This document shows, piece by piece, positions 3,473 to 41,713 of a stretch of DNA of 64,000 bases (the stretch's first letter is position 1; each line of letters begins with the position of its first letter). The notes below the pieces were generated by a model that saw nothing but the letters and a program-made list of their open reading frames with translations, did not search any database and was not told where the DNA came from. Made by a program: the position numbers and the translations under genes. The stretch is from the NCBI RefSeq assembly GCF_020520425.1, contig NC_079487.1, positions 133,012,385-133,076,384 on the forward strand, given 5' to 3'. The stretch is from Spinacia oleracea. Its lineage: Eukaryota > Streptophyta > Magnoliopsida > Caryophyllales > Amaranthaceae.

Positions 3473-3797
3473 CTCCCTCCGTCCCGGAATACTCGCAACG
3501 ATTTGACTTTTTGCACTATTCACATAATTCACTTTGACCCTATTTTATTTATAGTATATAAAAGTAAGTGTTAGCTTATAATATGTTGTTTACAAACTTT
3601 TATATAAGGTGTTCTTATACAAAAGTAGTCGTTGTTTGTTTGCTTCATCTTAATATATAAATTTTTAAAATATTAATATTTTATAAGATTTTATAATATA
3701 TAATTGAAGATATTTATGGTCAAAGTTGTACATTGTCAAATATGTCACGTCAAACCGTTGTGACTTGTGACTTGCGAGTATTCTGAAACGGAGGGAT
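3473..3797. mobile_element. Stowaway MITE
   Basis: Flanked by TA on both sides. The left end is CTCCCTCCGTCCCGGAATAC and the right end is the near-complement (GAGTATTCTGAAACGGAGGGAT). The interior is AT-rich and non-coding. These ends are diagnostic of plant Stowaway elements, the non-autonomous relatives of Tc1/mariner-like transposons. It sits a few hundred bases upstream of the first F-box gene. Confidence 0.85.
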
Positions 3798-4142: not shown

Positions 4143-5910
4143 ATGGAAATCATTTCAAAGAAGCAGGCAATTCTGGATTGTGATGAAGCGGGGAATTGCA
4201 GAGATAGGTTAAGTGAATTACCAGACGAAGTTATTGTTCACATTCTCACTTTTATGCCAATTAGGTTTGCTGTTAGAACTGTCTTACTTCGCCGATTCGG
4301 TAAACTTTGGACTTTGATTCCCACTCTCAAATTTGATTATAATGAGAGTGATATAATCGGCAATGTTGTCAAGTATCACAAAAATCCCACCATTGATTTG
4401 TTTGAGTTTTTTTGGGCATATGATTTGGATTTGCTTTTCCCAGAAGAACGTGATAAAATGGACAACAATGGCTTTAAGAAAAAAGACTAAGGTGTTGAGT
4501 GTTGCCATCGGCATAGAACCTTGTGTTATGTATCTCCCACCTCGTGTCTTTACAAACCAGTGTCTTGTTTTGCTTGAGCTTACCAGTTTATCCATTAAAC
4601 TCCCCCGTCTAGTATACATGGGATCACTATGGAAATTGAAACTTGCTTTTGTGGTTGTTTGTGATCGGGATTTCAGGCGTATGATATCTGGATGCCCTTG
4701 TTTACAAGAATTGGCTATTGTATTTCCTTACAAATTACATCAGCTGCATTTTACTGCTCCGAGCATCGAAAAGTTAGAGCTTGAATTTAGTACAGAATCA
4801 GGTAGTGCACAAGACAGATACTACTCACTTGATTGCCCTAACCTCAAGATCCTGCAAATTGAAGATGTTTTACTAGGAAATCTCCAAATTATTGATGTTT
4901 CATCTGTTCGTAAAGCCATAATCAGAGGTTCTTTCAGAGTTGATTTACCGTCTAATGAACAAGATCAATTTGAAATTTTACTCGGCAAGTTTCAAAATGC
5001 TGAGGTTTTCTATTGGGGAGATAATACTTATTTGGTCAGTTGTGTTTCTATCCCTTGTTCTTTATTGTTTAGTCTGTGTTCTTTTTCTTGTTGCTGAAAT
5101 TTCATGTTGTGCATGCTACATTTAGGCTGTCAGAGTTGATTGACCATTACATGGTTTGTGGTAAAGCAATTAACTTAGGCTTCATAAAATCATGTAGCTT
5201 AGTCCAAGAGAACAATGTTAACCAAGTGTCAGAATCTGAGTTTGAATTGTTGTGTTTTGTGCTGTGATAGATTTAAGTTTTTCTCAACAACCAAGTCATG
5301 TTAGTGCTTTATATCTCACTTTTATAGTACGTTCATTGCTTAGTTTCTCACACTATAGAATATTGCTTATGTTCTTTCATTCCTTTCCAGCAATTAGAAC
5401 ATTGTGGAAATGAGAAACTGGCTTTTCAAAAAAATACATGGACCCGTTTAGCTCTAAGGTCAGGGGCCCGTGGAAGCTGTTTGCTAGGCGTTTGTAGATT
5501 GTTGAGAAACTCATTGTATTTGCAACAACTTATAATATATGCCGATGTGGTAAGTCAATATGTGAATCGCGTTCATCTAGCTAATATTTTGGTCCACCTT
5601 TCATGTAACACATAATATTTGTTATCTTTTTCAGGATTTTATCTGTGATTGCAATATGCTTCTGTACGAGCTTTCTTCTCCCTGTGTGATGCGATACCTG
5701 AAAATAGTCACTATACTTAATTTTGAGAAGTCATGTCAACCACTGCTTCAGCTAATAGAATTTCTGCTCAAAAGTGCTGTCAATTTGGACGAATTGGTTA
5801 TTGTCTGCAACAGGAAGGATCGACTTCTTTCAATTGAGGGGCATGCATTCATGATGAAGTTATTAAGCTTTCGCAGAGCCTCACAAAATGCAAGGGTTGT
5901 CTTCGATTGA
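4143..5910 (+). pseudogene. F-box/LRR/FBD protein gene 1, frameshifted
   Basis: Exons are 4143-5034, 5391-5549 and 5635-5910. The N-terminal F-box (DRLSELPDEVIVHILTFMPI) is followed by LRR-like segments and a C-terminal FBD-like domain encoded by exons 2 and 3. F-box proteins of this kind are substrate-recruiting subunits of SCF ubiquitin ligases. Compared with the paralogs at 7731 and 10988, the frame shifts by one base at about 4435-4460. The F-box half is in one frame and the LRR half in the next, and the first frame stops at 4490. From about 4463 onwards the paralog-like sequence is open to the exon 1 donor. Exons 2 and 3 are intact and in phase. It is either a young pseudogene or an assembly error, because the rest is well preserved. 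Confidence 0.75.
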
Positions 5911-7730: not shown

Positions 7731-9887
7731 ATGGAAAATAGTTCAAAGAAGAAGCAAGATGTTTGTGATGAACAAGGAAAATGCAGGGATAGGTTAAGTG
7801 AATTACCAGATGAAATTCTTGTTCAAATTCTGTCTTTTCTGCCAATTAGAGATGCTGTTAGATCTGTATTACTCCGTAGATTTGGAGAATTGTGGTCTTT
7901 TCTTCCTACTCTTAAGTTTGAGGGCGACAAGGAAGAATTCGTCCGCAAAGTTATGGAATATCACAAATGTCCAACAATGGATGAACTGGAGTTGTCGAGA
8001 GGACATGATCTTTCTGAAAAAGAGTTTATCAAGTTGACAAATATGGCCTTGAGCAAGAAAGCCAAAGTCTTTAGGGTTTATAGTGAGAATCATTATTATA
8101 ATCTGCCATCTCGTTTCTTCACGAATCAATATATTGTTTCGCTTACTCTTTACAATATGTCAATCAAACTCCCCAATCGTGTTCATATGAAGTCGCTAAG
8201 GAAATTGGAACTTTTTTTTGTGAGTATCGACGATAAAACATTCAAAGTTGTGATATCTGGATCCCCTTGTTTACAAGAGTTGGTTATAATGAATCCTGAC
8301 ATTTTACATGACATACATTTTACTTCCCCAAGCATTGAGAAGTTGGAGCTTGATCTTTGTCTACATTTTGCAATACAACATGATGCATTTTACTCACTTA
8401 ATTGCCCTAACCTGAAGATCTTACATGTTAGTGAAGTATGTTTGAAGCATCTAAAACTCATTGATGTTTCATCTGTTCGTGAAGCCAAAATCCTTTATTG
8501 TCGCATAGCTTTTGACCGTTACCATTTTGAAAAGTTGATTGAAAATTTTCGAAATGCTGAGTTTTTCCGGTTGGAAGATGACGCTTACATGGTGAGTTTT
8601 TTGTTTCCTTATTCTTTCTTTCGGTTTATTTCTCAGTTCTCGTCACTCTGTATTATTATGTTTTCATGCCACACATTCCCCAACATTGTTGTGTTTGTAC
8701 TCATACTGTAGTTCAGGTGCTTGTTCTGTGCCTATTAATTACTCCCTCCTATTCAAATTACTAGTCGTTTTAGCAACTTACATACTTATTAAGAAATATG
8801 GAGTACTTTGTAAGAAGTTAGTTAAATGTAGTTGATGTTATGATGGAAACATAAAGTGACTTTATAAGGTATCATTAATATAAAACGATGTATAATGTTG
8901 TATGGATGTTAAAAAATGTCCTTTGGTAACATATTGAATTGCTATTCTAGAACTGCTTATGTATTGAGACGATTTATATTTTCGATTAGATGAAATACTG
9001 AATCCTCTCATCATACAATCGTGTTCGTGTGCTATGCTCCGAATGTTAGGACTTAGGACATGAGTATCTTTGTTCCTGGGTTTTTGGGTCAGGATCACAG
9101 GAGTTGTCATTTAGGTCATCCAATAATATTAGAGTAATGAGTATGGTGAAGCATAATGCTCATTTCCTCGTAGTTGTATGGTGTTTTATTTATGCAGATA
9201 AGGTGAATTAACTTACAGTTCTACTCTTTATTTGCTTATGGCTGATATTTCATACCGTGTATGCGGATTTGAGGGTTGCAGTAGCTGGATAGATTTCAGT
9301 AATGGGTGTTCATTTCTGTGGAATGTTTCTAACGTTCTTTCACCTTTTTACCAGCAATTAAAACACTGTGGAAGTCAGAAACTGACTTGTCGAGATAATC
9401 AATGGATTCGTTTAGCTTTGAGGTCAGGAATACAAGGAGGCTGTCTGTTAGACATAAGTACATTGCTAAGAAACTCATGGCGCTTGAAACAACTTATAAT
9501 ATATGCTGATGTGGTATGTCTATCTGCTTATCCAGTTTATCTACCTAATACTACAAGTATTTGGGCTTGCCTTTTCATATAACATAAAGATATTTCATGT
9601 ATTTTTGTCAGGGTTTTTTCTGTAATTGCAATCTGCTTTTGCATGACCTTCCTTCTCCTTGTGTGATGGAGAAACTTATAACTGTTACCATTCGTGAATA
9701 TGAGAAGCCGTGCAAAGCCCTACTTCAGCTGATAGAATTTCTGCTTAAAAGTGCAGTCGTCTTAGAAAAAATGGTTATTGTCTGCAATAAGAAGGATCAG
9801 CTGTTTTCATCAGAGGGGCAAGAATTCTATTTCCAGTTATTAAGCTTCCCAAGAGCCTCAAGAAAAGCAAGAGTTATCTTTGCTTGA
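7731..9887 (+). CDS. F-box/LRR/FBD protein gene 2
   Basis: Exons 7731-8591, 9355-9513 and 9612-9887 encode 431 residues, all junctions in phase 0 with GT-AG borders. The F-box is at residues 20-60 (DRLSELPDEILVQILSFLPI). LRR-like repeats follow, with conserved signatures SGSPCLQELVI, SPSIEKLELDL and LNCPNLKILHV. The C-terminal part (exons 2-3) is FBD-like: LLQLIEFLLKSAVVLEKMVI. It probably acts as the substrate receptor of an SCF E3 ligase, with unknown target. The start is set by the conserved sequence around the ATG in all three paralogs. Intron 1 reads through for about 39 codons before a stop, giving a hydrophobic tail if retained. This is the middle member of a tandem triplet and looks intact. 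Confidence 0.88.
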
Positions 9888-10987: not shown

Positions 10988-13247
10988 ATGAATTCGAGTT
11001 CAAAGAAGCATGAAATTTGTGATAAACAAGGCAATTGCATAGATAGGTTAAGTGAATTGCCAGATGAAATACTTATCCACATTCTATCACTTTTGCCAAT
11101 TAAAGATGCTGTTAGAACTGTCTTACTTCGCCGATTTGGTAAACTCTGGACATTGCTTCGTACTATTGAATATGATTTCAGACAGGACGCTATTGAATAT
11201 GATTTCGGACGCGCCGATTGGTTTATTGAATATGATTTCGGGCAGGACGGTCTGTTTATCAACAAGGTGATGAAGTACCTCAAAAGTCCCATAATTGATA
11301 AGGTTGTGATTAGGGAGAAATCTGGACCATTAAAAGAAGAGTTGATGAAGTTGATTACTTTTGGTTTGAAAAAAAAGACCAAGGTATTGGGTATTCATTT
11401 TGATGACTTTAGTTTTGAGGTCCCTCGTGTTGTTTGGAGAAATCAATTCATTGTTTCACTTCATCTTACTAAAGTGTGCCTCGGGTTCACTCGTTGTACT
11501 CGGATTCATATGGGATCACTCAAGAAATTGGAACTTAATTGTTTGTGTGAGAGTAATGAGAGGATCAAAACTCTGTTAGCTGGATTCCCTTGTTTACAAG
11601 AGTTGGTTATTAAGTATCCTAAAATGTTACAAGCCCTGCATTTTGGTGCTCCGAGTATTGAGAAGTTGGAGCTTGATCTTTGCTTGAATATGAGAAAGCC
11701 GACTTGCGTGAATAGTATATTTTACCACGAACGATTCTCACTTGATTGCCCTAACTTGAAGCTATTGCACATCAATGAAGTATGTTTGGAAACTCTGGAT
11801 TTGATTGATGTTTCATCTGTTCGTGAAGCCAAAATCACTGAGTGCTGCATGTCTCGCGACAATGTTGATTATTTTGAAATATTGATCGAGAAGTTTCGAA
11901 ATGCTAAGATTTTCCAACTGGGAGATAAAGCTTATTTGGTGAGTTTCTGCTTCCTTGTTCTTTCTTGTGAAGAACCCTGCACTTTTGGTTTGTTTCTACT
12001 TCCAATATTATGTCTTGTACAGTTTGCCGCGCTTTTAATATGAAAACATATCTGTCACCTATATGGTCTAGTGATTACACTCGTATATAATCTTTATGCT
12101 CTTTTCCGAGATACAAAAACCTAGTTGTTTGAATTATATCCCTTGAATGTTAGATCCTTAGGAGAGGAAAATCTTTTCGTAATCTAATTTATCTCAGGTG
12201 GGTGTAACTGTGGAGGAGTGTATGGTAAAAAGATGTTACTCTGTGGGTGAATCTACTTGTTTGTGAAAGATGTTAAACTGTGGGTGAATCATAGGTCTCA
12301 TTTCTGGATATTGGGAAGAAGATGGTTTAGTTAAGTTACATTATTGTTCCTCACTTTCTAGTAGCTGAGTTCGCTACGTTTGAGGTATAAAGCAGCAGAA
12401 TACTATGTGACTCTAGGGTTTAAGTCTTAAATTTCTCTGACTCTCAGTGTCTTATTACATGGTTGTGGTAAAAGCATTTTATGCAGGATACCTTACGTCA
12501 CGTAGTCAAACTGAACAATGTTTACTAAGTGGCATTACCGTTATCAGTTATTGTGTTGTGTTCTCAGATATATTTAAGTAAGCTAACCTGTAACCTCAAC
12601 GTCTAAGTGCATGTTAGATTGGTAGTGCTTTCTATCTCTGTTGTTGGGTGTTCATTGCTTAGTTTTCGACACTATTATTTGACAAAAGTGGAATAATTCT
12701 GATGTTCTTTTCTTCTTTACTAGCAACTGGAAAAATGTGGTAGTGAGAAACTAGCTTTTCGAGAAAATCGATGGACTCATTTAGCTTTGAGGTCTGTGAT
12801 CCACGGAAGCTGTCTGCTAGGCATTTGTAGATTGCTGAGAAACTCACGGCGCTTGAAGGAACTTATTATATATGCGGATGTGGTAAGTCTATCTGTAAAT
12901 CAAGTTTATCTAGCTAATATTTTTGCCAAAACCTTCATTTAACAGAGAATATTTCATGTAACTACCATCAGGATTTTTTCTGTGACTGTGATCTGCTTCT
13001 GGATGAGCTTTCTTCTTCAAGTGTGATGCGGCGACTCAAAATTGTCACAATTCGTGAATATGAGAAACCTTGTCAAGGTCTACTTCAGCTGATAAAATTT
13101 GTGCTCAAAAGTGCAGTTGTCTTGGACAAATTAGTTATTGTCTGCAACAAGAAGGATGAACTTTATTCAACAGAAGAAAACGATTTCATTTTGCAGTTAT
13201 CAGGCTTTCCAAGGGCCTCTCGGAAGGCAAATGTTGTCTTTGCTTGA
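10988..13247 (+). CDS. F-box/LRR/FBD protein gene 3
   Basis: Exons 10988-11938, 12724-12882 and 12972-13247 encode 461 residues, all junctions phase 0. The second exon is 159 nt in all three paralogs. The F-box (DRLSELPDEILIHILSLLPI) is near residues 18-55, followed by LRR-like segments (FPCLQELVI, APSIEKLELDL, LDCPNLKLLHI) and a C-terminal FBD-like domain. It likely serves as an SCF ubiquitin ligase receptor. It is about 30 residues longer than gene 2 because of an in-frame triplication of the unit IEYDF-x2-D just after the F-box (11164-11247). That insertion keeps the frame, so the gene appears functional. Confidence 0.88.
11164..11247 (+). repeat. In-frame triplication inside F-box gene 3
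   Basis: Three imperfect copies of TATTGAATATGATTTC-(A/G)G, spaced about 27-33 bases, encode IEYDFRQDA, IEYDFGRAD and IEYDFGQDG. The other two paralogs have one copy of the corresponding segment. Confidence 0.85.
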
Positions 13248-17167: not shown

Positions 17168-17635
17168 CTACCTCCGTTCCCTTTTGTTTGCCCGGCCTCC
17201 AAGCCATTTTCTTCTTTAATATACTTCCTCCGTTCCTAAATAGTTGCACCGTTTTGACTTTCACATTTCCCAACGCATAACTTTGACCATCAATACTTAT
17301 AATTATGTATTAGTAAAAATTATAAAAAGTTGATATATTTAAAATATATATTAAGATAAACCTAATAATACTTTATATAATAGTTTTTAATTTTATTTAT
17401 TAGTAGAAAATTGAGATCAAAGAAACACAAGTGAATAGTGTCAAAAGTCAAAACGGTGCAACTATTTAGGAACGGAGGAAGTATTAGTTTTTGATGGAGT
17501 TTAATTGAGAAAGGACAAAAATAATGGAAATATGCATTTTACGTGGGAGTATCTCAATGTATATATTTATGGGTACAGTCTTTTATGAACGAATCAAAAC
17601 AATAAATGGAGCAAACAAAAAGAAACGGGAACAAG
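17168..17635. mobile_element. Stowaway MITE carrying another Stowaway
   Basis: The left end is CTACCTCCGTTCCCTTTTGT and the right end GCAAACAAAAAGAAACGGGA, with TA on both flanks. A second, different Stowaway is inserted at 17224-17481. Confidence 0.6.
17224..17481. mobile_element. Stowaway MITE (inner)
   Basis: TA flanks a 258-bp element with near-perfect inverted ends. The left is CTTCCTCCGTTCCTAAATAG followed by TTGCACCGTTTTGAC. The right is GTCAAAACGGTGCAACTATT followed by TAGGAACGGAGGAAG. The high end identity suggests a recent insertion. Confidence 0.9.
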
Positions 17636-18517
17636 TATATGATTGCGGGAGTTGAGAATCATAACTGAACAAGATGATGACTCTTTCCAGCAGTTTCTTT
17701 TGGCTCTTGTTTTTGTTTATTCCAATATGAAAAAGGTTGGATGAGGAATTATGAGTCATTTTCTTGTGCTTTTGACGTGTTCTTTCTTTAGTCGCATTGT
17801 CACTATATTGACCCGTACGTACTTGTATTATGTAGCTGGTTTTGTTTTCTCTTGGGCACTAATTGGGTGTATGTAATTGTTGTATTGCTTATAAATAATC
17901 ATGTGGTGTTAGTGCAACTAGAGTTGGGCACCATGTAGCGCCACGTGTGGGGCCCATTGGGCTAGGCCTATGATGGATAAAAGAAGAGTGTTGTGTCATG
18001 CTCGTGCCGATAGTTCATATATGAAGTCTATGTACCTTTTGACTCACACATGGTGACATACTGACGTACAATTTTTTGTTTATATATAAGGTTAAAAACA
18101 AGTGGATCGTCTTGACGTGTTGATTTTAAATGAACAATGACCTTGTCGTGACTTAAGTACTTAACTGACTCGCATGTTAATCTGACTCATACAATTCGAT
18201 CTAGACGTTGTATATAAGACCAAATGCATATAAAGCTCTATCACAACACTCTTTACCACTAAAGCATGAATCAGTATGATTTCTTCTTCCATTAAATTAT
18301 TTATAAACTCTTTTTTTGAAAGATCGGGGGGTGGGGGGCTTCCCCTACCCGCCACCCCCTAACATACAATAGGATCCTAACGTCAAGATGAGGCCATCAT
18401 TCAAAGGTCAACGAACGAGGTGGCTACTATCTTATTAGTTTCTTTTAGTATTTACAAGCGGTTTGTATCACGTAGTAGAACTCATATTATCCCCCCAGAC
18501 TTGCTAAATGAGTTATA
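17636..18517. other. Intergenic left of the mariner element
   Basis: No gene recognised. Two G- and C-rich runs occur near 18325-18360. Confidence 0.4.
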
Positions 18518-18545
18518 CTCCCTCCATTCCTTTTTGTTCTTCCCA
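18518..18545 (+). repeat. MLE left terminal inverted repeat
   Basis: It starts CTCCCTCCATTCCTTTTTGT and continues TCTTCCC. A second copy of its inner part (ATTTCTTTTTGTTCTTCCC) follows at 18560-18578, a subterminal repeat offset by 34 bp. Confidence 0.92.
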
Positions 18546-19048
18546 TTTCCTTTTTTAGCATTTCTTTTTGTTCTTCCCCTACTGAATCTTTACTATTTTT
18601 GGCCATAGTTTTTTTACCAATTTACCCTAAGATTCCCCACTATTTACAAAAAATACCCTAAGATTCTACCCTTTCCCACCCACTTTTACCCCACCCACCT
18701 TATTTAATTAATTAACCTAACCCTACCCCCCCTCCCTTTATTACCCGTCCCTATCTCACAATCCCTCCCTCACCTCTCATTCTGATTTCTCTCTCTCACC
18801 TCTTCGGATCTCTCTCTCTCTCTTATTTCACTCTCTCTCTCTCTTAAAATTCCTCCCCTGTTCTTGAGAAAACCCTAGGTTTTCCGCCTCTGATCTGGGT
18901 TTTCCTCTCCAAATCTCGCAAATCTGAAACGTTTTCGCAGAAAAACGTTCATAAAAATTACTCGGAATCATTTTCCGATCAGATCCCCTCTATTTTTGTC
19001 CCCTTTTTGGTCCCTAATCGTCGCTGATCTCTGTTTTTCTGGTACTTT

Positions 19049-20286
19049 ATGGGTTCTTCTTTGTCTAGAACTCGAGGTGATTCTGGGGTGGGAACTTCTG
19101 GTCAAAGAATCCCCGATTCCAACTGTGATTGGGGATCCAAGTGCAACTGTCCCAATAACGAGCATTCCTACTCCGCCGAATATAAAAACAATCTGTATTT
19201 GGCCCAAAAAGAAAATACGAGTACTCGAAACTATTTGGAAGAATGGTTTCGGAAGAGGGAAGTGGAGCCAGGAGAGGAGGTTGAGTCAAAATATGACGAT
19301 CGGAAACCCACTCCCTCAGATCTGCGTTTTTTCGGTGAAGGAGATTCCGATGAGGTATTAATTTTGATTTTTTGCGATTTATTTAGGGTTATTGATGTCG
19401 ATTTTATTAAAATGGTTTGATGAATGTTTGCATGTCTAAAAAAGTGGGATTTGATAAATGTTTGATTTATTTGGAGTATTGTTCATTAAACTCGGATTAT
19501 TTTCTGGAGTAGTTGCTCTGATTTCCCATTGCATGTGTTAAAAATGCAGATCTGGTATTTTTTCGAATTTTTTGGGAATTTTTTGGAGATTTGTTGGATT
19601 CATTCGGGCTTTTTATGTTATTCTTTGCTCTGTTTTCTCATTGCATGTTGTTAAAATTGAGTTCTGATTTTATTTTGTGCTCTGTTTTTTCATTGCATGT
19701 TGTTAAAATTGAGTTCTGATTTTATTTTGGGCTCTGTTTTTTCATTGCATGTTGTTAAAATTGAGTTCTGATTTTATTTGGAGCTATTTGGAAATTATTT
19801 GAAGAAAATCGGAATATTCATGTGTTTTGTTGATCTGTTTTCCCATTGCATGTGGTTAAAAATGGGATCTGGATGTATTTGGGATATTATTTCACATTTT
19901 TTGGGTAAAAATGGGATCTGGATGTATTCCGAAAATTAGTTGGATTTTAATGGAATTATTGTGTGATTTGCTTTCATTTATCTCATTGCATGTGGTAACC
20001 ATGGTGATCTGAAATTATTTGGAACTTTATTTTGAGTTGTTTGATTAAATCTGATTTTAATTCATGGTCCCCTGTTATTTTATGATGGCACTAATCATGT
20101 TGTTTGTCCCCTATTGATTGCAAGGAACCAAGTGGGTCTGATTCATTTGATCTGGTGTATGTTGGAGAGTGTGAAAATGAGAATGGTGATGCTGTTGGGT
20201 CTCCAGGACAACTTTCATCTGGTTATCCCTCCTCAAAGAAAGGAGAAAAGGGAAAAAAATCGGCTTCAGCATCTGATGATGCTTAG
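19049..20286 (+). CDS. Second MLE-borne gene, 155-residue unknown protein
   Basis: Exon 1 (19049-19354) ends GAT GAG|GTATTAAT. Exon 2 (20125-20286) begins after TTGCAAG, in phase 0, and ends at TAG, giving 155 residues. The protein is hydrophilic. It has a short Cys-containing segment (CDWGSKCNCPNNEH, residues about 26-39), a charged middle (EEWFRKREVEPGEEVESKYD), and an acidic/Ser-rich then Lys-rich tail (KKGEKGKKSASASDDA). A CT-rich leader of the kind seen in plant genes precedes it (18780-18850). It lies inside the transposon, convergent with the transposase. No family recognised. It could be an accessory transposon protein or a captured host gene. An overlapping frame at 18996-19361 is the alternative reading. 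Confidence 0.5.
19627..19782 (+). repeat. 52-bp tandem repeat in the intron of the second MLE gene
   Basis: Three adjacent copies start GCTCTGTTTT(T/C)TCATTGCATG at 19627, 19679 and 19731. Looser copies of the core CCCATTGCATGTGGTTAAAA occur at about 19525, 19845 and 19985. This gives a repeated motif across the intron. Confidence 0.9.
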
Positions 20287-21000
20287 ATAAGTCTGTCTCC
20301 TTTCTCCCTTTTTTCATTTTATTGAATGCTGGCTAGCTGTGGAGTCATAAGGTGGATGCCAACAACTGTGATCTGTTGTTGGCCAGGGGTGTTGTTGTTT
20401 GGATGATGATGTTGTGATTAGTTGTATGGATGTTGATGTTAGATAATGATGTTATGATATTGATATTGATAATGATGATTGGATGATGGTGTTTCCATAT
20501 GGTTATGAAATTTTGTGGAATGTTGTCTGTGTGATGAACATGATTTGATGGCTTAATGTCCCCTGTTTTATGGTATGTTTTGTGTATGATAAATATGATG
20601 CTTTGGTGAGTTTGAGATTTGTTCAGTATAACTATGTTTTGGATTAGTAAAGGCATGAAATGAATATAATTTGGGGATAGGGTTTGAGTTATTTCAGTCC
20701 TCTCAGTGTGGCCTGGTGTTGAATGCTTAATGTCCAAGCATGTCCCTTTAGGATACAATAATGTCCCTTCATTTATTGTGATCGATGATGAGTCTTTTTT
20801 TTGCTGAGGAACAAGTCCAACTAACCACAAATGCTCGTGCTGCCATTAGTATCAGTAATGATATTTCTCGGGCGCTAAGTGTTTGTGGTTTGGAGTTGTT
20901 TTAATGATGCTTGGGGACATTCTGAGATCAATATTAGGAGGTTTGTGATCTTCAATGATGTGATTGTTGATATTCTGAGATCTTTGTTTTGATAATTGTC

Positions 21001-21090
21001 CTTTAACTTCTTTTGTCGAACGGAGTGAATGTCATTTCACACAATGGAATGTGAATATCAATCATTCCGTTCGGCAGAAGAATGTTAAAG
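21001..21090. repeat. Foldback 1
   Basis: Arms 21001-21028 and 21063-21090 pair over about 26 bp around a loop of roughly 35 bases (CTTTAAC ... TCGAACGG against CCGTTCGG ... GTTAAAG). It lies in 558-bp unit 1. Confidence 0.85.
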
Positions 21091-21558
21091 ATATGATAGT
21101 ATTGAAACTACTTGATCAATGATGTGTGTCAATATGTCTGAGAAATGAAACCCTACATGTTAATCATCTGTTTAATGCTTCATGTCCCATGAATCAGTGG
21201 AGGTCTGTGATGAGTCTTTCATTTGATGAGGTTCAAACCCTATGTTTTTATCAGTTCATGGTGATCTGATGCATTGTTGATTGTTATTGTTATGCTTGAT
21301 CTGTGATGAGTCTTTCATTTGCTGAGACTCAAACCCAATGTTCCAATAACAATTGTGCACCATTAGCATCATTGATGCTCTTCCGGAGCTAAGTGTTAGG
21401 GGATAGGGTTTGTGTCAATGATGCTTGGGGACATTCTGAGATCTTATGTAAGGTTAGACAGGAGAGGCAATTCATGTCTTGCAAAACATGTATAATGTGT
21501 TTCTGATATTCAATGATGTTAGTGTTGATATTCTGAGATCTTTGTTTTGATAATTGTC

Positions 21559-21648
21559 CTTTAACTTCTTTTGTCGAACGGAGTGAATGTCATTTCACAC
21601 AATGGAATGTGAATATCAATCATTCCATTCGGCAGAAGAATGTTAAAG
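21559..21648. repeat. Foldback 2
   Basis: The copy of foldback 1 in the second 558-bp unit. One base of the right arm differs (CCATTCGG instead of CCGTTCGG), which adds one mismatch to the stem. Confidence 0.85.
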
Positions 21649-22137
21649 ATATGATAGTATTGAAACTACTTGATCAATGATGTGTGTCAATATGTATGAG
21701 AAATGAAACCCTACATGTTAATGATCTGTTTAATGCTTCATGTCCCATGAATCAGTGGAGGTCTGTGATGAGTCTTTCATTTGATGAGGTTCAAACCCTA
21801 TGCTTTGATCAGTTCATGGTGATCTGATGCATTGTTGATTGTTATTGTTATGCTTGATCTGTGATGAGTCTTTCATTTGCTGAGACTCAAACCCAATGTT
21901 CCAATAACACTTGTGCACCATTAGCATCATTGATGCTCTTCCGGAGCTAAGTGTTAGGGGATAGGGTTTGTGTCAATGATGCTTGGGGACATTCTGAGAT
22001 CTTATGTCAGGTTAGACAGGAGAGGCAATTCATGTATTGCAAAACATGTATAATGTGTTTCTGATATTCAATGATGTTAGTGTTTCTGATCTGTGATGTA
22101 TGTGTTGATAACCTGAGATATTTGATTCTAAACATGT

Positions 22138-22223
22138 CCCTCACCACCAATCACCAAAGGGAATACAGATCATGTCACATCATTGATTGATCTAGTATCC
22201 CCTTTGGTGAATTGGTGGTGAGG
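22138..22223. repeat. Foldback 3
   Basis: Arms 22138-22166 and 22195-22223 pair over about 28 bp with one bulge and one mismatch (CCTCACCACCAATCACCAAA against TTTGGTGAATTGGTGGTGAG). The arms are unrelated to foldbacks 1-2. Confidence 0.88.
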
Positions 22224-22344
22224 TTGTTAATCATTTAGAAACAAATCTGTCAATGATGTAAAACAACTTAACTGTGAGTCAATGATGTTGCCTTGTTCAT
22301 TGCTTCCTTGTTTTTGCTGCTTTGTTCTTGTTTCTTTGTCCATT

Positions 22345-22445
22345 ACATCTTTTGGCACATCGGCATCCAATGGGGAAGAATTTCCATCTGAAAATGATGT
22401 GATATGCATTCTTTCCATTTGGATGCCGATGTGTTTAGAGATGTG
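22345..22445. repeat. Foldback 4
   Basis: The stem joins CACATCGGCATCCAATGGGG on the left to CCATTTGGATGCCGATGTG on the right. Weaker pairing extends outward (CATCTTTTGG with TTTAGAGATG) and inward. The loop includes TTCCATCTGAAAATGATGTG. Confidence 0.85.
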
Positions 22446-22694
22446 ATGTGATAAAGTTTTTGTACTTATGCCTTGTGATCTGTGATGAGTCTTCATTTTA
22501 TGAGTGTCAAACCCTTTGTTTTTCAATCAAACTCATGCACCATTAGCATCCATGATGTTTTTCAGGAGCTAAGTTTAATTGGAAAGGGTTTGATTCAATG
22601 ATTTTTGGGGACATTCTGAGATATTTATGAATCTTTGTTTATGTGAGGCATATTCCATGTGTTATCAATGATGAATTGATTGTTTTTGTCAAAA

Positions 22695-22801
22695 TTACAT
22701 CTTTTGACACATCGGTTTCAAAATGGGAATAATTTCCATCTGAAAATGATGTGATATTATTATTTATTTCCATTTTGAAGCCGATGTGTTTAGAGTTGTG
22801 A
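22695..22801. repeat. Foldback 5
   Basis: The stem joins CACATCGGTTTCAAAATGGG to CCATTTTGAAGCCGATGTG, with the same loop sequence as foldback 4 (TTCCATCTGAAAATGATGTG). The middle of the stem differs from foldback 4 on both arms, yet pairing is kept. Confidence 0.85.
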
Positions 22802-23157
22802 TATTGCAAATGCTGCCTTGTTCTTAAGAACCCAATGCTGCCTTGTTTATAGTGTTGCCAATGCTGCCTTACCTCTTGTGCCTATGCTGCCTTGTTCTTG
22901 TTATGTACTCATTTGATGTTTATTGCCTTGCCTTGATTACTCTACATTGATGTGAATAAGAATGATGGAAAAAAAACTTTACTAAACTTAAACATGAGAT
23001 TCATTCATTGATGCTTCCAAAAGATATGCTTACAAAATGTTTTGCCTACATGTTATGCTTGCATTTAAGCTTACAAAAGTGACACATTGGTTTTACTTGT
23101 CAATTTAAAAACATGTCCCCAAAACACAAAAAGTTATCTAATTGTTTTCACCTTGCT

Positions 23158-24804
23158 TCACTGGTTTGCTTTCCATTCATCATAGAGTTGCATGCATTCA
23201 TTAACTGCCCATATAGGTGCCTTGACTTGCTCTGGCAGTCTGCCTTCATCTTCTAAAATCTTCTTCTTGTTGTGTGGAAGTTGGTAATCATTGTTGCCTT
23301 TGTGTTTTAGAATCTCATTAGAAACAAACTGTAATGTCATCCACACATTAGACAATGTCTTAGGATGCAACTCATTAAAAGAATCATACACTGCTCCACT
23401 TAAGTCCTCCACAGTTTTAGGCATTTTCTTGTGCATAAGTGATTGTATTGACCTGAAAAATCCCAAGTCCAAGATGTTGCAATCTGGACTGTTTGCTGGC
23501 TGTTGAGTCAACACAAAAGTGAACCCATCTTGTTTGTAGTGTAGTTGCCATTCAGGATCATTTTGCAATATATGTGCCTTTGCATTATCTTGAATGATAT
23601 AGATGACCTTTTCCCCTTCATGTGGTGGCCACTTTGCCTTGATTGCTGGAATTAGCATGTTGATCATCATTGCCCTTGTTTCAATTTGATTCACAGACTT
23701 CACTGGCTTTGTTTCAATGGTCCCCTTTACTCTGTTTTTTGATGTCCTCTTGGCTGCAACTGCATTTGTGAATGGAAATATGCCTATTTTACCATCAAAT
23801 TCACAATTCCCATTTTCACCCCACCTTGGTCTGGCTACTGCTGCCATGAACATGAATTTTGGTATCTTGGTTCTTGAACTTGCACTTCTATGTGGATAGG
23901 GTTCATTGTTTGCAAGATAAACTCTCTGGTTTTTTTGAGTCAAATAAAACCACTTCTCATCAATATGAATGAAGTCATACATGCTGTAATAAGTTGGTTC
24001 CTGTGGTATAGTGTAATCCATTATTAGTCTGAGTACCCACCTCATCCTTGCCATTTTGCATGCATCTGAAATGCCTGGATGCAAGGGACTTGAGTGTGGC
24101 TTAATAATTTTCCTCTTGATGAGCCTCCATACTATTGTTGGTCCCAAATTGAGCATTCTTGCAAGATCTACAATGCATGTTCTGTCCCCCATGGCTATTT
24201 GTGCAATAGAGTCATATGTGACTTGAACCTTTTTCCTGCCACACTTGTGATACTTACTTTCCACCACATATGAATTCATTGCTGCCTTCTGCTTTTTTGC
24301 TTTGTCCCATATTGACCCTATGGTTTTTCTGTTGTAATCAAATTCTATGGCTGCATCCCTTATTGTCCCAAACAAAAGAGTTTCTGAATCTGGAATTTTT
24401 CTATTCAGCAGGTACACCAAAATTTCAAGCCTCAATTCATTATTTATTCTAGGAGTCCTAGGCTTATGATGATCTGTTCTGGGTGTTGCTGTTTGATGAT
24501 GAATTGGTGATGCATTTTCTGATGGTGGTGGAAAGTTCAAATCAAAAAGAAATGGTACCTCTTGAAAGTTGGTAGTTTGCTGGTGCCCTTCCCCTTCTAC
24601 TTCTGGTACTTGCTGTACATATTCAGTGCTGTTTGGTACATCTTCAATAAACCCAATGTCCCCAAAATCAGCAGCAGTATTTTGAGAAGCTTGTACCAAG
24701 TCAGCAGCATCATCACCTACCTCTGAGTCAGAATCGGAGTTAATGCCATCGCCTTCATCATCAGAAAATCCGAGGAAATCGTCATCCTCTTGATCTGAAG
24801 CCAT
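23158..24804 (-). CDS. Mariner-like transposase, DD39D
   Basis: A single-exon frame of 548 residues. Residues 1-45 are strongly acidic (DQEDDDFLGFSDDEGD). Two helix-turn-helix-like regions follow: about 125-175 (LRLEILVYLLNRKIPDSETL) and about 200-240 (YDSIAQIAMGDRT ... LARMLNLGPTIVWRLIK), which would bind the inverted repeats. The catalytic core has the first Asp in HIDEKWFYL, the second in IIQDNAKAH and the third in SPDCNILDLGFF. Exactly 39 residues separate the second and third Asp, the plant MLE signature. The protein would perform cut-and-paste transposition at TA sites in the nucleus. It is read inward from the right end, with about 550 bp of upstream sequence before the TIR. The frame is intact with all three acids present. 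Confidence 0.95.
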   Translation of the reverse strand: MASDQEDDDFLGFSDDEGDGINSDSDSEVGDDAADLVQASQNTAADFGDIGFIEDVPNSTEYVQQVPEVEGEGHQQTTNFQEVPFLFDLNFPPPSENASPIHHQTATPRTDHHKPRTPRINNELRLEILVYLLNRKIPDSETLLFGTIRDAAIEFDYNRKTIGSIWDKAKKQKAAMNSYVVESKYHKCGRKKVQVTYDSIAQIAMGDRTCIVDLARMLNLGPTIVWRLIKRKIIKPHSSPLHPGISDACKMARMRWVLRLIMDYTIPQEPTYYSMYDFIHIDEKWFYLTQKNQRVYLANNEPYPHRSASSRTKIPKFMFMAAVARPRWGENGNCEFDGKIGIFPFTNAVAAKRTSKNRVKGTIETKPVKSVNQIETRAMMINMLIPAIKAKWPPHEGEKVIYIIQDNAKAHILQNDPEWQLHYKQDGFTFVLTQQPANSPDCNILDLGFFRSIQSLMHKKMPKTVEDLSGAVYDSFNELHPKTLSNVWMTLQFVSNEILKHKGNNDYQLPHNKKKILEDEGRLPEQVKAPIWAVNECMQLYDEWKANQ

Positions 24805-25323
24805 TAAGTCCCCTGTTTTTTTGCTATTTAATGCTGAATTGAGGAAGAAATTTTGGTGTTTTGCTTGTATTTATTGAACTTGGTAAAAGTCAGATTTTGG
24901 TCTTTTGTGGGGGGAAAGTGACCCTATTTATAAAGGGAATTCACTATGTCAACCCCTCAAAAATTTGGAGGGAAATTAAAAATCCCCTGTTTTTTTATTT
25001 GGGGGGAAAATTTGGAGGGAAAACTGAAATCAATTGTTTGGGCTTAATTTCCAGCCAAAAAAAACGTGAGTCATTGTATGATTAAATCTGATTGGTCCAT
25101 GTAACAGCTGATGGGTCCCATACCCCATGTGACTGAATTTTTTTTCTGATTTCTTTCATTACTTTAATAAAATATCTACTTTTCTCCCTATTAATTAAAT
25201 ACTTTCTCTCTCTTTATTTTATTCAATTTCTTACACCCAATCATTATTCTTACACCCAATCATTACTCATATCCCAATACAAACCAAGATTCAGTTTTCT
25301 TAAACCACACCCAACATTCTTTA

Positions 25324-25351
25324 GGGGAAGAACAAAAGGGAATGGAGGGAG
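25324..25351 (-). repeat. MLE right terminal inverted repeat
   Basis: It reads GGGGAAGAACAAAAGGGAAT then GGAGGGAG, the reverse complement of the left end with one clear mismatch, followed by TA. No second subterminal copy is seen on this side. Confidence 0.92.
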
Positions 25352-25926
25352 TAGATTGTAGTTTGTGAACTACGGAGTATTTTGTTTTATGTAACTTGAG
25401 ACTATTTTTGTTATTTACTCGTGCTAAATTCAAGAGGGGTATAACAGACATTGTACTAAACATATTAGTTGAAAATAAGAGGTGCTTTCTTACTTTCGTG
25501 GCTACTTTTTATTGATTGAGTGGGTTGTCTTTTGCTATATATGGTGTATGTACCACGGTCCAAGCCGTACCGGTAGAACCACTAACTTATGTTCCCTCTT
25601 ATTATTTGCTAGCCGGCGTGCGGCTTGGCTAACAAGCTAGCTAGCTTAGCCAGTTTACTCGGACCAATCACAAGCTTCTAATTTTCTAGCATTCTTACGT
25701 GGCACCACTCCTAAATGGACAAGTTTTAGAACTTTTAAGCCGAGGTTTGGAGCTCTATAAGCCTTTTGTTTAGCCGATGATTAATTGATGATGGTTGTAC
25801 TTGAATAATCAATTGTGGGTTATGATGATGTCATCTCCCACTCTCCATCTTGTACAATGTACTGATGTACGTGTCTAACTTTCAAATGTTCTAACTTACT
25901 TGTAAATTATTTTTAACTAAACAATA
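25352..25926. other. Intergenic right of the mariner element
   Basis: No gene recognised. TACGGAGTA occurs at 25371-25379, 20 bases outside the element. Confidence 0.5.
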
Positions 25927-26005: not shown

Positions 26006-26246
26006 CTCCCTCCGTCCCAAAATTATAGTCCTGTTTGACTAAAAACACGAATTTTAAGAAAAATAGAATTAACTGTGTGGGAAATTGAAATATAGTTCAT
26101 TGATGATAAAAAAGTAGAATATAATACTCCGTACATGTAAAAAAGAATAAAGTATATGGGGAAGAGAAAATAGTACATGTTAAAAGGAATAAAGTACATT
26201 TTCTTTCGATTTGGAAAACAGGACTATAATTTTGGGACGGAGGGAA
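26006..26246. mobile_element. Stowaway MITE
   Basis: TA-flanked, with left end CTCCCTCCGTCCCAAAATTA continuing TAGTCCTGTTT. The right end AACAGGACTATAATTTTGGG continues ACGGAGGGAA. The long near-perfect ends indicate a young copy. Confidence 0.9.
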
Positions 26247-32205: not shown

Positions 32206-34120
32206 TTCTATCAGCAACAAACCAAATTAATTGAAATTCCCTGGAAATAGCAACAACAAACAGTTAATCGTTACTAATTGAAAACCTAATTTAGGTTAAT
32301 AAAGTATAATCATATTCAATTTCCTAATTTAGGGCTTCGGGTGAGTGGCTGTGGTAGTGGTGGTGGCCGGGAAATTTAAGTGGGGGTAGGGTGGGTCTGG
32401 TCGTTATGGTTGTGGTCTGGGTGGAGTTAACTGAGTGAGGGACTGAGGAGGGGATGTGATATAAGGGTAGAAATGGTAATTTGTACTTAATTCCTCCGTT
32501 CCTTAAATGTGGCACAATGGTTGATTTTTACTCCTCCAATACACTTTGATTCTTAATATCTATGTATAAGTAAAATTATAAACAATCAGTACGAATCTAA
32601 CAGGATTACATGGTCCCGTATGACAACAATTTTCTTACGTATGAATCACAAAAATGGTTAAAGTCATAGTGTTAATAGTATAAAAATCAAAATAGTGTGA
32701 TACTCAACAAACGACTCTGGTTTTCATGTAAGAAGGATATCGGTGCTTTAATTTGATGAGTAAGTTCGGGGTGATCCTTCTGCTGATCATAAAGAAACTA
32801 ATTAAAAGAAAACGAATATCCTTCAAATGAACTATTTATGAGATTAATCAAAACTTGACGATTGAGTACTCGATCCGTATATGATGTTTACGTATGATAA
32901 AGTTGTAAAACTTCTCGAAAGCTTGAACTACATTCTACATTGTGTTGTTCAATGCTAAAGCTCCGAGTGAACCCGAAATAGGCCTATTCATTTTAATTTT
33001 ATTAACCGGTAACTCCATTAGTTTTGACATTTTGTACACGATGAATCCACTCCTTATTTAAATACCACATAACTATATAGAGTATTCAATAATTATATTC
33101 ATTTAAATATTTAAAATTATGCGTATATATTTGTGTATGATGTAATTCTTCGCCAAACAAGCAAAAATAATGCAAAGAATTATTAATCTGAAAATGTTTT
33201 TGACGTATGGAAATAAGATAAATTGATCATACACTCTTGATTCTTGAAGTCTTGATAATCATACTCTTACATCATAAATTCATAACTATTTTTTTTTTAT
33301 ATGGTTAAAAGTAATAGTAATATGGATTTGGCCATATACTTATTATAAGTTTTTTGGGAAAATGAGTGTCATAGAGAACCTTAGTACGTCAAATGCAATA
33401 TGGATTTGTCCAATAGGCATCCAAACAAAGCTAAGTATGTCATTACATTGATGAGGAGAAAAATTGGAGAAAAAAAACGCAAACGAGGGGTGAGTGTTCG
33501 ACTTTTGTAAGTAATAGGGAAAAGATAAAAATAAGTAATAGAGAAAATATAAAAAATACAAGTGTTTATATTAAAAAAAAGAAAAAGGAAATTTATCGAT
33601 GAGTTGTAAGGTTATGCCGTTATGGAAATACAAAAAATAATAAACAAACTAAGGGGTATAATAGAAAAAAAAAATGATGCTAAAATTAGGAGTTGGAGAT
33701 TCTTTTAGTAAGTAGAGGAAATTGTTGGGTGGGTTCTTGGAAACTCAAAATTGAAAATTGGCCCGGTCAAACATGACACGAAAAGCTCTATATTTTTTAC
33801 CCGAATTAGCAGATCTTTGGTAGAAATAAGCATCACATAGTTTGGCCCATACCCCATAAAAGGCATATTTTTTTGGTCATGGCCCGATCCAAAACCTACT
33901 CAACTTGTCTCTTGATTAGGTCTACATAATTTATAAGGAGGTCAAGTAGATAGGTTGTATCATTTCATCATTCGTATATGATCATACTTCGTATATGATT
34001 TGAAACATATGTAAGTGTATTTAAGGACATTCAACATATCAATATGAAAATTAGTGCATACAAAAAGGAAAGGAGGGAGGATAACGAATGAAAATAGCAA
34101 GATATCATGCAACTATTATA
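32206..34120. other. Intergenic upstream of the SecE-like gene
   Basis: Promoter side of the SecE-like gene, then AT-rich DNA. A degraded Stowaway end (TTCCTCCGTTCCTTAAATGT) lies at about 32491. No gene found. Confidence 0.45.
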
Positions 34121-34478
34121 CTTCCTCCGAATCTAAATGTTTTTCCCGTTTATCACTTTACGCGGTTATTAAGGAAAAAGAAACATTGTAAGATTACTAT
34201 TATTAATGTAGTTTTATGGGGAATTGTTGTTTTTTTTATTCTATTTTCACAAAAAAACAAAATAGTTGAGCCAATAGAATTTAAGGAATAAAAATGTCAA
34301 CTCATTAATCCATCCAAACTTAAACCAACCAATGAGATTACAAGGTTTTTATTGATAAACCAATAGAATTACAAAGTTAAAATTACAAGGAAGAGATTAA
34401 AAAGGAAAGAAATAAATAGGAAGATCATTTTGAGACACCTTAAAAGGAAATGAGAAAAATATTTAGATTCGGATGGAG
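34121..34478. mobile_element. Stowaway MITE
   Basis: TA-flanked. The left end is CTTCCTCCGAATCTAAATGT and the right end ATTTAGATTCGGATGGAG, nearly perfect inverted copies. TACGGAGTA follows 8 bases beyond the right end. Confidence 0.9.
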
Positions 34479-39629: not shown

Positions 39630-40118
39630 AGGCTTTGTTCTTTTTGACTTATTTCAGACAAAATAAGTTCAGTTAAATTCCGATAAGTCCAGTTAAGTTC
39701 AGATAATATAAGTTCAGCAAAAATAAGTTTTTTTCAGACATTTTCACACACAAATAAGTTTATTTCAGACAAAATAAGTTTTTTTCCAGATAAAATAAGT
39801 TCAGTTAATTTCAGTTAAGTTCTGATAACATAAGTTCAGTCAAAATAAGTCCAATAGAACAGAGCTTAAATTCTAAAGACCTAGTCTCTGTTCTATTGGA
39901 CTTATTTTGACTGGAGTTATATTACCTGAACTTATCTGAACTTAACTGAACTTATTTTATCTGAAAAACTTAATTTGTCTGAAATAAACTTATTTGTGTG
40001 TGAAAATGTCTGAAAAAAACTTATTTTTGCTGAACTGAACTTATCCGAACTTAACAAAACTTATTTTGTCTGAAATAAGTCAAAATAAGTCAAAATAAGT
40101 CGAACGTAACAAAGCTTT
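39630..40118. repeat. Large foldback built from TCAGATAAG-type units
   Basis: Left arm 39630-39870 and right arm 39890-40118 are near reverse complements. The outer ends are GGCTTTGTTCTTTTTGACTT and CGAACGTAACAAAGC, and the centre is GTCCAATAGAACAGAG ... CTCTGTTCTATTGGAC. Both arms consist of repeated AAGTTCAG/CTGAACTT units. TTAA-like flanks hint at a Harbinger-type target. Related copies lie at 52318-52496 and 53727-53840. Confidence 0.8.
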
Positions 40119-41351
40119 AACAAGAAGTTTTTGAAATTAATTACATGCACATGAGTATAGTTATATTTCTTATTATACACAAATACTAGTGAAAAATTAT
40201 GGACAAATTAAGTAAGTTTTTAGTTGACATATTTCAAATAAGAACATGCTTTAAAAATCGAAGAAAACTCGTATAATTGATTGTGAAATTAAAGTTTTCG
40301 GAATTCACTATCCAAATAAAAATATTGTCTACACAATATGGCTAGCTTCAAAAGTTGTCACCTTTATAATAACCGATATCTATTTGATCCCCTTGACTTT
40401 ACTTGGTCTATTGATTTGATATGTCTAAAGTCAATTTACGTTAGAAAAGCTTTAACGATTGTTGTAATTAAAAATGTACTTAGACTGATAAATCAATAAT
40501 ACTTTGTATATTATGACAAATATCTCACCTACTACAGATTTAACTCACATATTTGTCAATTACACCATTGATGATGTACCTATTATCATTCTGCATGTGG
40601 GCAACATTGTACGAAATTACAAATAACGTTTAAAAATTAAGTGTAAGTCATATTCTAGTTAGACCAAGCAACCAAGTATAACAATTAGATCACTCTAAAT
40701 TCTTTTAATCACTCAATAAGCAACAAACAACGGCACCACTAACCAAATACAACTAATTATGTCTTGCATGAAATACATAAACACTATTCATCATAATTTA
40801 TGCTCCATATCTTAAGATAGTAAAACAAGCATCTTAATCTTAACCTTAATCAAGCTTATCTGAAAAGATAACAAGAGAAAAAATCCATTTACAAAATAAC
40901 AAATTATCCGTAATAAATAATAATAAGAAAGTACAGAAAAAGAAAAAGAAAAAGAACAAAATAAAACAAGAGGCACATGAACAAACATCTCTACTACTAT
41001 CTCCATAACCTTACCCCTTTCTTCCATCATCATTCATCAGCATCTATTACTCCGGTATTATTTCTTCCCCTTTTTAATTTTTTTTATTCTCCTTTTTTTT
41101 TCTTCTTCCTTCTATCAGTTGCTAAAATCCAGTGGATGAATCACTGCAATACTTCCTCTTCTTAGACTTCACACTTCCCAACATCACAGACCTTTCTTTT
41201 TGCCACTCCATTTCCGTTTTATACACCTTTTCTCTCTCCTCCCCAAACCAAAACAAAAAAAAACCTAACTTCCATTTTTTCGTCATTTTCTCCCGTCAAA
41301 TTGTTGAATGTTCTCGAAGAAGGTAGTGTTAGTGTTGTGAAAGAGGTGGTT
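40119..41351 (+). promoter_or_regulatory. Upstream region and leader of the KNOX gene
   Basis: AT-rich promoter DNA with a pyrimidine-rich leader (about 41030-41300) before the ATG at 41352. An in-frame ATG at 41301 gives a longer N-terminus, but the conserved class I start is MDEIYGLHP. No discrete operator can be assigned. Confidence 0.4.
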
Positions 41352-41676
41352 ATGATGGATGAGATATACGGCCTTCATCCGGTGGTGGCTGCGGGTGGCG
41401 ATTATTCCGATAAGGCGTTGATGTCGCCGGATAATCTTATCCTGAATTCAGATTATCATTCATTGATCATGAATTCCGGTAGCGCCGCCGCTGTCCGATT
41501 CGGCTCCGATGAACTGATCTCCGCTACTTGTATTTCTGAGTCTGCTTCCGTCACTCCTGAGTTGCAGCAACGAGATGATGACACGTCTACCTCCATCAAG
41601 GCTAAGATCGCCTCTCATCCTCATTATTCTCGCCTTCTTCAATCCTATATCAATTGCCACAAGGTGCAGTCCTTTT

Positions 41677-41713
<37 letters not shown>

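Follow-up and report, generated by a model that had tools for sequence, protein, structure and literature searches.

A complete-looking mariner-like element of Spinacia oleracea with a putative second spliced gene and an internal array of hairpins that possibly gives rise to small RNAs

Within 64 kb of Spinacia oleracea DNA (NC_079487.1), the whole of which was analyzed and is called the window below, a TA-flanked plant mariner-like element occupies positions 18518-25351 and measures 6,834 bp between the TAs. The entire analysis is based on this single copy. According to the sequence and a listing of inverted repeats, the TA target sites lie at 18516-18517 (left) and 25352-25353 (right). They border on the left terminal inverted repeat (TIR; 18518-18544, plus strand), which was taken from the same listing and begins with CTCCCTCC, and on the right TIR (25325-25351, minus strand), which was identified by the listing and by a comparison of the ends. 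Including TA, the inverted arms (18516-18544 and 25325-25353) comprise 29 nt, start with TA followed by CTCCCTCC and are complementary at 97%, as the original prediction of near-identical ends between two TAs had it. Inside the TA, the left and the right end agree at 27 of the first 30 positions and differ at three. An inner box of 14 nt is present twice at the left end, in exact copies 34 nt apart (18531-18544 and 18565-18578; the second copy, on the plus strand, emerged from the end comparison and from a listed inverted pair), and once, with one mismatch, at the right end. A second copy of the element was not found in the window. The best match there, 78.6% over 98 nt, concerns the CT-rich leader of the element and is taken for low-complexity similarity. 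As judged from these features and the genes described below, the element is complete-looking, with two putative convergent transcription units.

The minus strand contains an uninterrupted open reading frame (23158-24804) for a transposase of 548 aa. It possesses the residues D282, D406 and D446, the last two of which are separated by 39 residues (DD39D), and an IS630-family transposase model of NCBIfam matched residues 398-479 (E 1.5e-5, 24.6 bits, which is under the curated cut-off of 100). Searches of Pfam revealed nothing above the cut-off (best DUF7769, E 0.05), there was no match to sequences of the PDB, and the structure model was too poor for use (mean predicted local distance difference test score, pLDDT, 35.6). 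Because the TA, the ends, the triad and the NCBIfam match point in the same direction when taken together, transposase and element are assigned to the IS630/Tc1/mariner superfamily. The predicted intact DD39D transposase was thus recovered, and the TA duplication, the CTCCCTCC TIRs, the DD39D triad and the homology of the transposase to the superfamily mark the element as plant mariner-like.

On the opposite strand, a separate frame was detected that is probably spliced, which also matches the original prediction. Exon 1 (19049-19354, plus strand) would start at an ATG and be followed by a putative GT..AG intron (19355-20124) and by exon 2 (20125-20286), which runs to the stop codon. Across the intron, the two presumed exons join in frame to give 155 aa. 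The intron holds 52-bp tandem repeats at 19618-19779 (3.1 copies). Only one in 20,000 base-shuffled versions of the coding sequence remained open, and the frame shows a coding-like base pattern with G at 0.38 in codon position 1 and A at 0.40 in position 2. Codon usage derived from the transposase failed to pick out this frame (-4.209, -4.205, -4.616; reversed -4.455, -4.370, -4.215). For the 155-aa product, no family above the cut-off was found in Pfam (best E 0.028) or NCBIfam, and the single match in the PDB was at chance level (E 4.8). The structure model of exon 1 was again too poor for use (mean pLDDT 48.1). Relatives of the transposase and of exon 1 were absent from collections of viral and prokaryotic contigs, a scope that says little for a plant element. 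The frame may encode a real accessory protein or may merely be the head of the plus-strand RNA.

Between the 3′ ends of both genes, local folding of 20290-23150 revealed a run of strong hairpins. Nine hairpins, all given here for the plus strand, lie within 20.8-22.8 kb in the order a1-b1-a2-b2-a3-g-d1-a4-d2 and form at least three families (a, b/g and d). Folding and a shuffle test identified a1 (20795-20940), b1 (20994-21100), b2 (21552-21658) and d1 (22334-22457), while a2 (21295-21450) and a3 (21853-22008) were recognized by folding alone, as was a4 (22472-22625). Hairpin g (22133-22230), a paralogue of b, is based on the shuffle test, an alignment and a pairing test, and d2 (22684-22812), a paralogue of d1, on the shuffle and pairing tests. 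Repeat families at a spacing of 558 bp indicate that a 558-bp unit was duplicated in tandem (20941-22056, plus strand), with probable borders of the copies at 20941-21498 and 21499-22056. Each unit contains one b and one a hairpin, and the copies are 98-99% identical where measured. The 1.9 kb of repeats that had been predicted between the 3′ ends are therefore real as far as the repeats are concerned, but the space from stop codon to stop codon amounts to 2.87 kb.

The shuffle test comprised six hairpins (a1, b1, b2, g, d1 and d2; a2-a4 were left out) with 200 shuffles each, none of which folded as well as the original. On the plus strand, z values of -3.9 (a1), -10.1 (b1), -7.8 (b2), -10.6 (g), -11.6 (d1) and -11.5 (d2) were obtained, compared to -7.0 (b1), -11.0 (g), -8.6 (d1) and -7.5 (d2) on the minus strand. 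The plus strand gives the better fold for eight of the nine hairpins; the exception is g, for which the minus strand does. Plus-strand segments of 120 nt with less than -40 kcal/mol account for 10 of 68 in the array versus 11 of 1898 outside the element. Coding content of the array was rejected, as a six-frame translation gave no Pfam family above the cut-off. The picture of a single element that has ends of its own, a gene of accessory type and, between its genes, a module of non-coding look therefore agrees with the ends, the putative spliced frame and the six-frame result.

A plant microRNA (miRNA) locus is characterized by a hairpin that is shorter than 300 nt and contains a 21-nt duplex with nearly complete pairing. 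Eight of the nine hairpins contain a 21-nt duplex inside the limits of plant miRNAs, the best ones being those of b1, b2, g, d1 and d2 with 0-1 unpaired positions. Among the 12 weak Rfam matches in the element, nine are to miRNA precursors, eight of them on the plus strand. We tentatively propose, as a quite possible reading, that the second transcription unit of this mariner has at its end a cluster of hairpins resembling those of miRNAs or small interfering RNAs (siRNAs), and that the cluster works like the CACTA-borne miR820. The minus-strand unit would supply the DD39D transposase, which would excise the element via its CTCCCTCC ends and use TA as the site of insertion. The other unit, on the plus strand, would start near the left end, contain one intron and the 155-aa frame and, by presumed read-through, continue into the nine-hairpin array. 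Its transcript would fold and might be diced to miRNA/siRNA-like small RNAs, and these could act on host or element RNAs in the way miR820 acts on OsDRM2, whatever their putative targets may be. A mariner lineage that directs a multi-hairpin small-RNA gene of its own against components of host silencing, i.e. a counter-defence convergent with miR820 in the form of a multi-guide array, is conceivable but quite unlikely.

Further support for the small-RNA reading comes from the comparison of paralogous hairpins, in which the number of broken pairs was set against the number obtained when the same changes were dealt randomly along each arm. The b and g hairpins lie in related flanks. When b1 is compared with g, 21 pairs are shared and nine changed on both sides, with nine broken pairs versus 18.3 expected (P 5e-5). 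For b2 and g, 20 pairs are shared and eight changed on both sides (nine broken versus 17.0 expected, P 0.00045). The tally of two-sided kept pairs is 12 for b1 and 11 for b2. Two-sided changes that kept the pairing were also seen for d1 in d2 (four; seven broken versus 14.5 expected, P 0.0009), a4 in a1 (seven; 10 versus 17.4, P 0.003) and a4 in a3 (three; eight versus 12.6, P 0.019). A second alignment agreed for d (P for broken pairs at most 0.001) and with a1 and a4 as reference (P 0.0002-0.02), while a3 as reference gave P 0.117 and 0.008 against a4. Hairpins b1 and b2 differ in a single pair, an A-C break. For b/g, for d and for some members of the a family, the alignments show that two-sided changes left the pairing in place; the a family as a whole is mixed. 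The assumption that stems evolve much faster than flanks was dropped. In the comparison of b2 and g, 50 of 91 stem positions and 90 of 121 flank positions are identical, but the first 34 flank columns show no difference at all and are taken for part of the recent duplication.

The chief rival of the small-RNA reading is passive foldback DNA, in which quasi-palindromes were multiplied by tandem duplication and the arms stayed alike since replication or repair used one as the template for the other, without any RNA function. Small RNAs, if any, would then result from host silencing of the hairpin transcript. The 558-bp unit present twice in nearly identical form is in line with this explanation, and templated arm copying would likewise produce changes on both sides that keep the pairing. 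Moreover, hairpins are common in plant transposons. According to the available part of a study on maize, less than half of the Tc1-Mariner and Harbinger elements, yet thousands of them, contain miRNA-like structures; miRNA-like regions generally have more mapped small RNAs and more CHH methylation, whereas the maize Mariners show no overall small-RNA skew there (PMC10760457). On the other hand, arm copying should restore Watson-Crick pairs, but the one-sided differences between paralogues on the plus strand mostly lead from Watson-Crick to G-U (36) and less often to A-C (11), a raw count without correction for composition, in which a4 enters twice and a4/a1 alone supplies 24 of the 47 cases. 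All in all, we regard this explanation as somewhat unlikely.

If the array does act through RNA, as the small-RNA reading holds, the plus strand is favoured as the RNA strand, though not proved. On the plus strand, transition-type mismatches between the arms comprise 37 G-U and 10 A-C. Given the abundance of G and T in the array, composition alone predicts a G-U share of 0.668; with the near-copies b2 and a3 dropped, the excess of G-U in the remaining seven hairpins has a P of 0.034. The position of the array 3′ of the plus-strand stop codon fits a plus-strand transcript.

Several observations weigh against the small-RNA reading. A qualifying duplex was also contained in 260 of 1000 random segments, and for this reason only the near-perfect stems of b, g and d carry weight, while a4 contains none. 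The gathering score of Rfam was reached by no match in the window, the weak matches of the element being far below it, and a known Rfam miRNA family was therefore rejected. Outside the array, the 64 kb yielded no target site at the score limit, compared to 6, 2, 0, 0 and 0 sites for shuffled arms. Six stem strings of 13-14 nt, for which RNA letters alone were tried, matched no paper text. With the fold of a2 as reference, the pairing retained in a1 and a4 did not exceed chance (P 0.6-1.0), and no significance was reached with a3 as reference against a1 (P 0.10 and 0.13). When paralogue pairs and the folds of both strands are pooled, plain breaks account for 55 changed pairs and two-sided changes that kept the pairing for 26. 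With respect to composition, the G-U excess is marginal (P 0.053 for all nine hairpins and 0.034 for the seven), and the minus-strand fold of g (-59.0) is slightly more stable than its plus-strand fold (-56.2). Finally, the sequence AATGAA, which resembles a poly(A) signal, precedes the array at 20659, so that read-through into it is not assured.

The array might also represent another structured RNA, either a cluster resembling C/D-box small nucleolar RNAs (snoRNAs) or a terminator and insulator between the convergent genes, for which its position between the two 3′ ends would be suitable. By eye, the a-type units show the spacing GTGATGA...CTGA...AATGATG...CTGA; however, ATGATG occurs often in this stretch, which is rich in T and G, again by eye, and within the array no match to a snoRNA family was obtained even at E values up to 1. 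Two C/D-box matches of Rfam fall in the transposase gene, below the gathering score, and a C/D cluster was not found. Long near-perfect stems are not known as a C/D feature. We consider this explanation most improbable.

Another possibility is a local capture, by which a transposase-only mariner acquired, in this copy alone, a stretch of host DNA comprising a gene and a locus of hairpins, as cargo and without founding a family. The element is longer than the 11 Dcmars of carrot, which measure 1,922-4,940 bp and have the DD39D motif and TIRs of 24-32 nt (PMC6881990), and the lack of a Pfam or NCBIfam family above the cut-off for the plus-strand product would suit a captured gene as well. In the accessible text of a grapevine study, captured gene fragments are reported for all cut-and-paste superfamilies that grapevine possesses, a mariner not having been detected in that genome (PMC2528002). 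By contrast, ends of a separate insertion were not seen inside the element among the listed repeats of at least 20 nt, and the plus-strand frame is unbroken, possesses splice sites and shows a base pattern like that of coding DNA. The layout is tidy too, since the two genes face each other and start near opposite ends. A capture is unlikely.

The original prediction had considered that the element perhaps drives the numerous Stowaways with CTCCCTCC ends in this region. This was not supported. With one mismatch at most allowed in the 8-mer, the window contains 17 further ends of the CTCCCTCC type next to a TA, and each of them deviates from the left TIR at 10-17 of the first 30 positions. Cross-mobilization may nevertheless occur because Osmar transposases of rice mobilize Stowaways in yeast (PMC3660474). 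Four likely Stowaway-type miniature inverted-repeat transposable elements (MITEs) of 241-358 bp were noted at 3473-3797, 17224-17481, 26006-26246 and 34121-34478; their TA-flanked CTCCCTCC-like ends belong to differing TIR types, none near that of the element. The closest match to its TIR in the window is an isolated end, CTCCCTCCTTTCCTTTTTGT, at 34060-34079 (minus strand), which has 8/30 mismatches, is flanked by GA and not TA, and is perhaps a relic. A strong foldback with two palindromes at 50360-50530 (approximately -55 kcal/mol on both strands) is perhaps a small inverted-repeat element. Further strongly folding segments outside the element are 39811-39930 and 41761-41880, the latter adjoining a frame (41301-41756) with the start of a KNOX1 domain (E 4e-12), probably an exon of a KNOX homeobox gene. 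On the plus strand, three consecutive frames of the F-box/FBD type were found at 4363-5097, 7731-8711 and 10988-12043.

Rice Mariner elements usually encode a single transposase (PMC4423477), and together with the sizes of the carrot elements this agrees with the earlier claim that described plant mariner-like elements essentially consist of a transposase gene. Bamboo Ppmar2 has a 27-nt TIR, CTCCCTCCG (PMC6696609). As far as the available parts of these reports go, the spinach element shares with Osmar (rice), Ppmar (bamboo) and Dcmar (carrot) the TA target and the CTCCCTCC-type ends, with the bamboo and carrot elements similar TIR lengths, and with the carrot elements also DD39D. What separates it from them is its size of 6.8 kb (carrot at most 4.9 kb), the putative second spliced gene on the opposite strand and the hairpin array. 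Neither a second gene nor an array of hairpins was found for any plant mariner among the matches listed, which cover titles and the beginnings of abstracts, subscription journals and Repbase being outside this scope. We therefore regard the element as a variant of the plant mariner-like elements, make no claim of a family and place moderate confidence in the RNA reading. Should the layout recur, some plant mariners would not be transposase-only elements, and a second superfamily of DNA transposons would be a candidate carrier of its own internal small-RNA genes, which would bear on the survival of cut-and-paste elements under RNA-directed silencing by the host. Even as a single capture, it would still be a clear case of a mobilized hairpin cluster.

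Stowaway-derived MIR hairpins are formed by the MITE itself, which folds by its ends. The hairpins described here are, by contrast, internal and belong to an autonomous-looking element. Stowaway-MITE-derived MIR genes such as rice miR812 do, however, tie small-RNA hairpins to the mariner/Stowaway superfamily (PMC10004981). PIF/Harbinger elements, which encode an ORF1 protein separate from the transposase (PMC2836001), are alike in their two-gene layout as far as described in that source, but the transposase of the spinach element is of the mariner type and its 155-aa product has no Pfam family above the cut-off. The closest parallel to have been worked out is miR820 of rice. Its precursor resides inside CACTA elements, its target is OsDRM2, and its foldback resembles this gene, according to the accessible part of the report (PMC3459959), whereas the array studied here bears no resemblance to other parts of the window, short words excepted, nor to Pfam families. 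It differs from the CACTA system also in its superfamily and in its nine hairpins of at least three families, for which the window yielded no target. What the two have in common is a DNA transposon with an internal foldback of the miRNA type.

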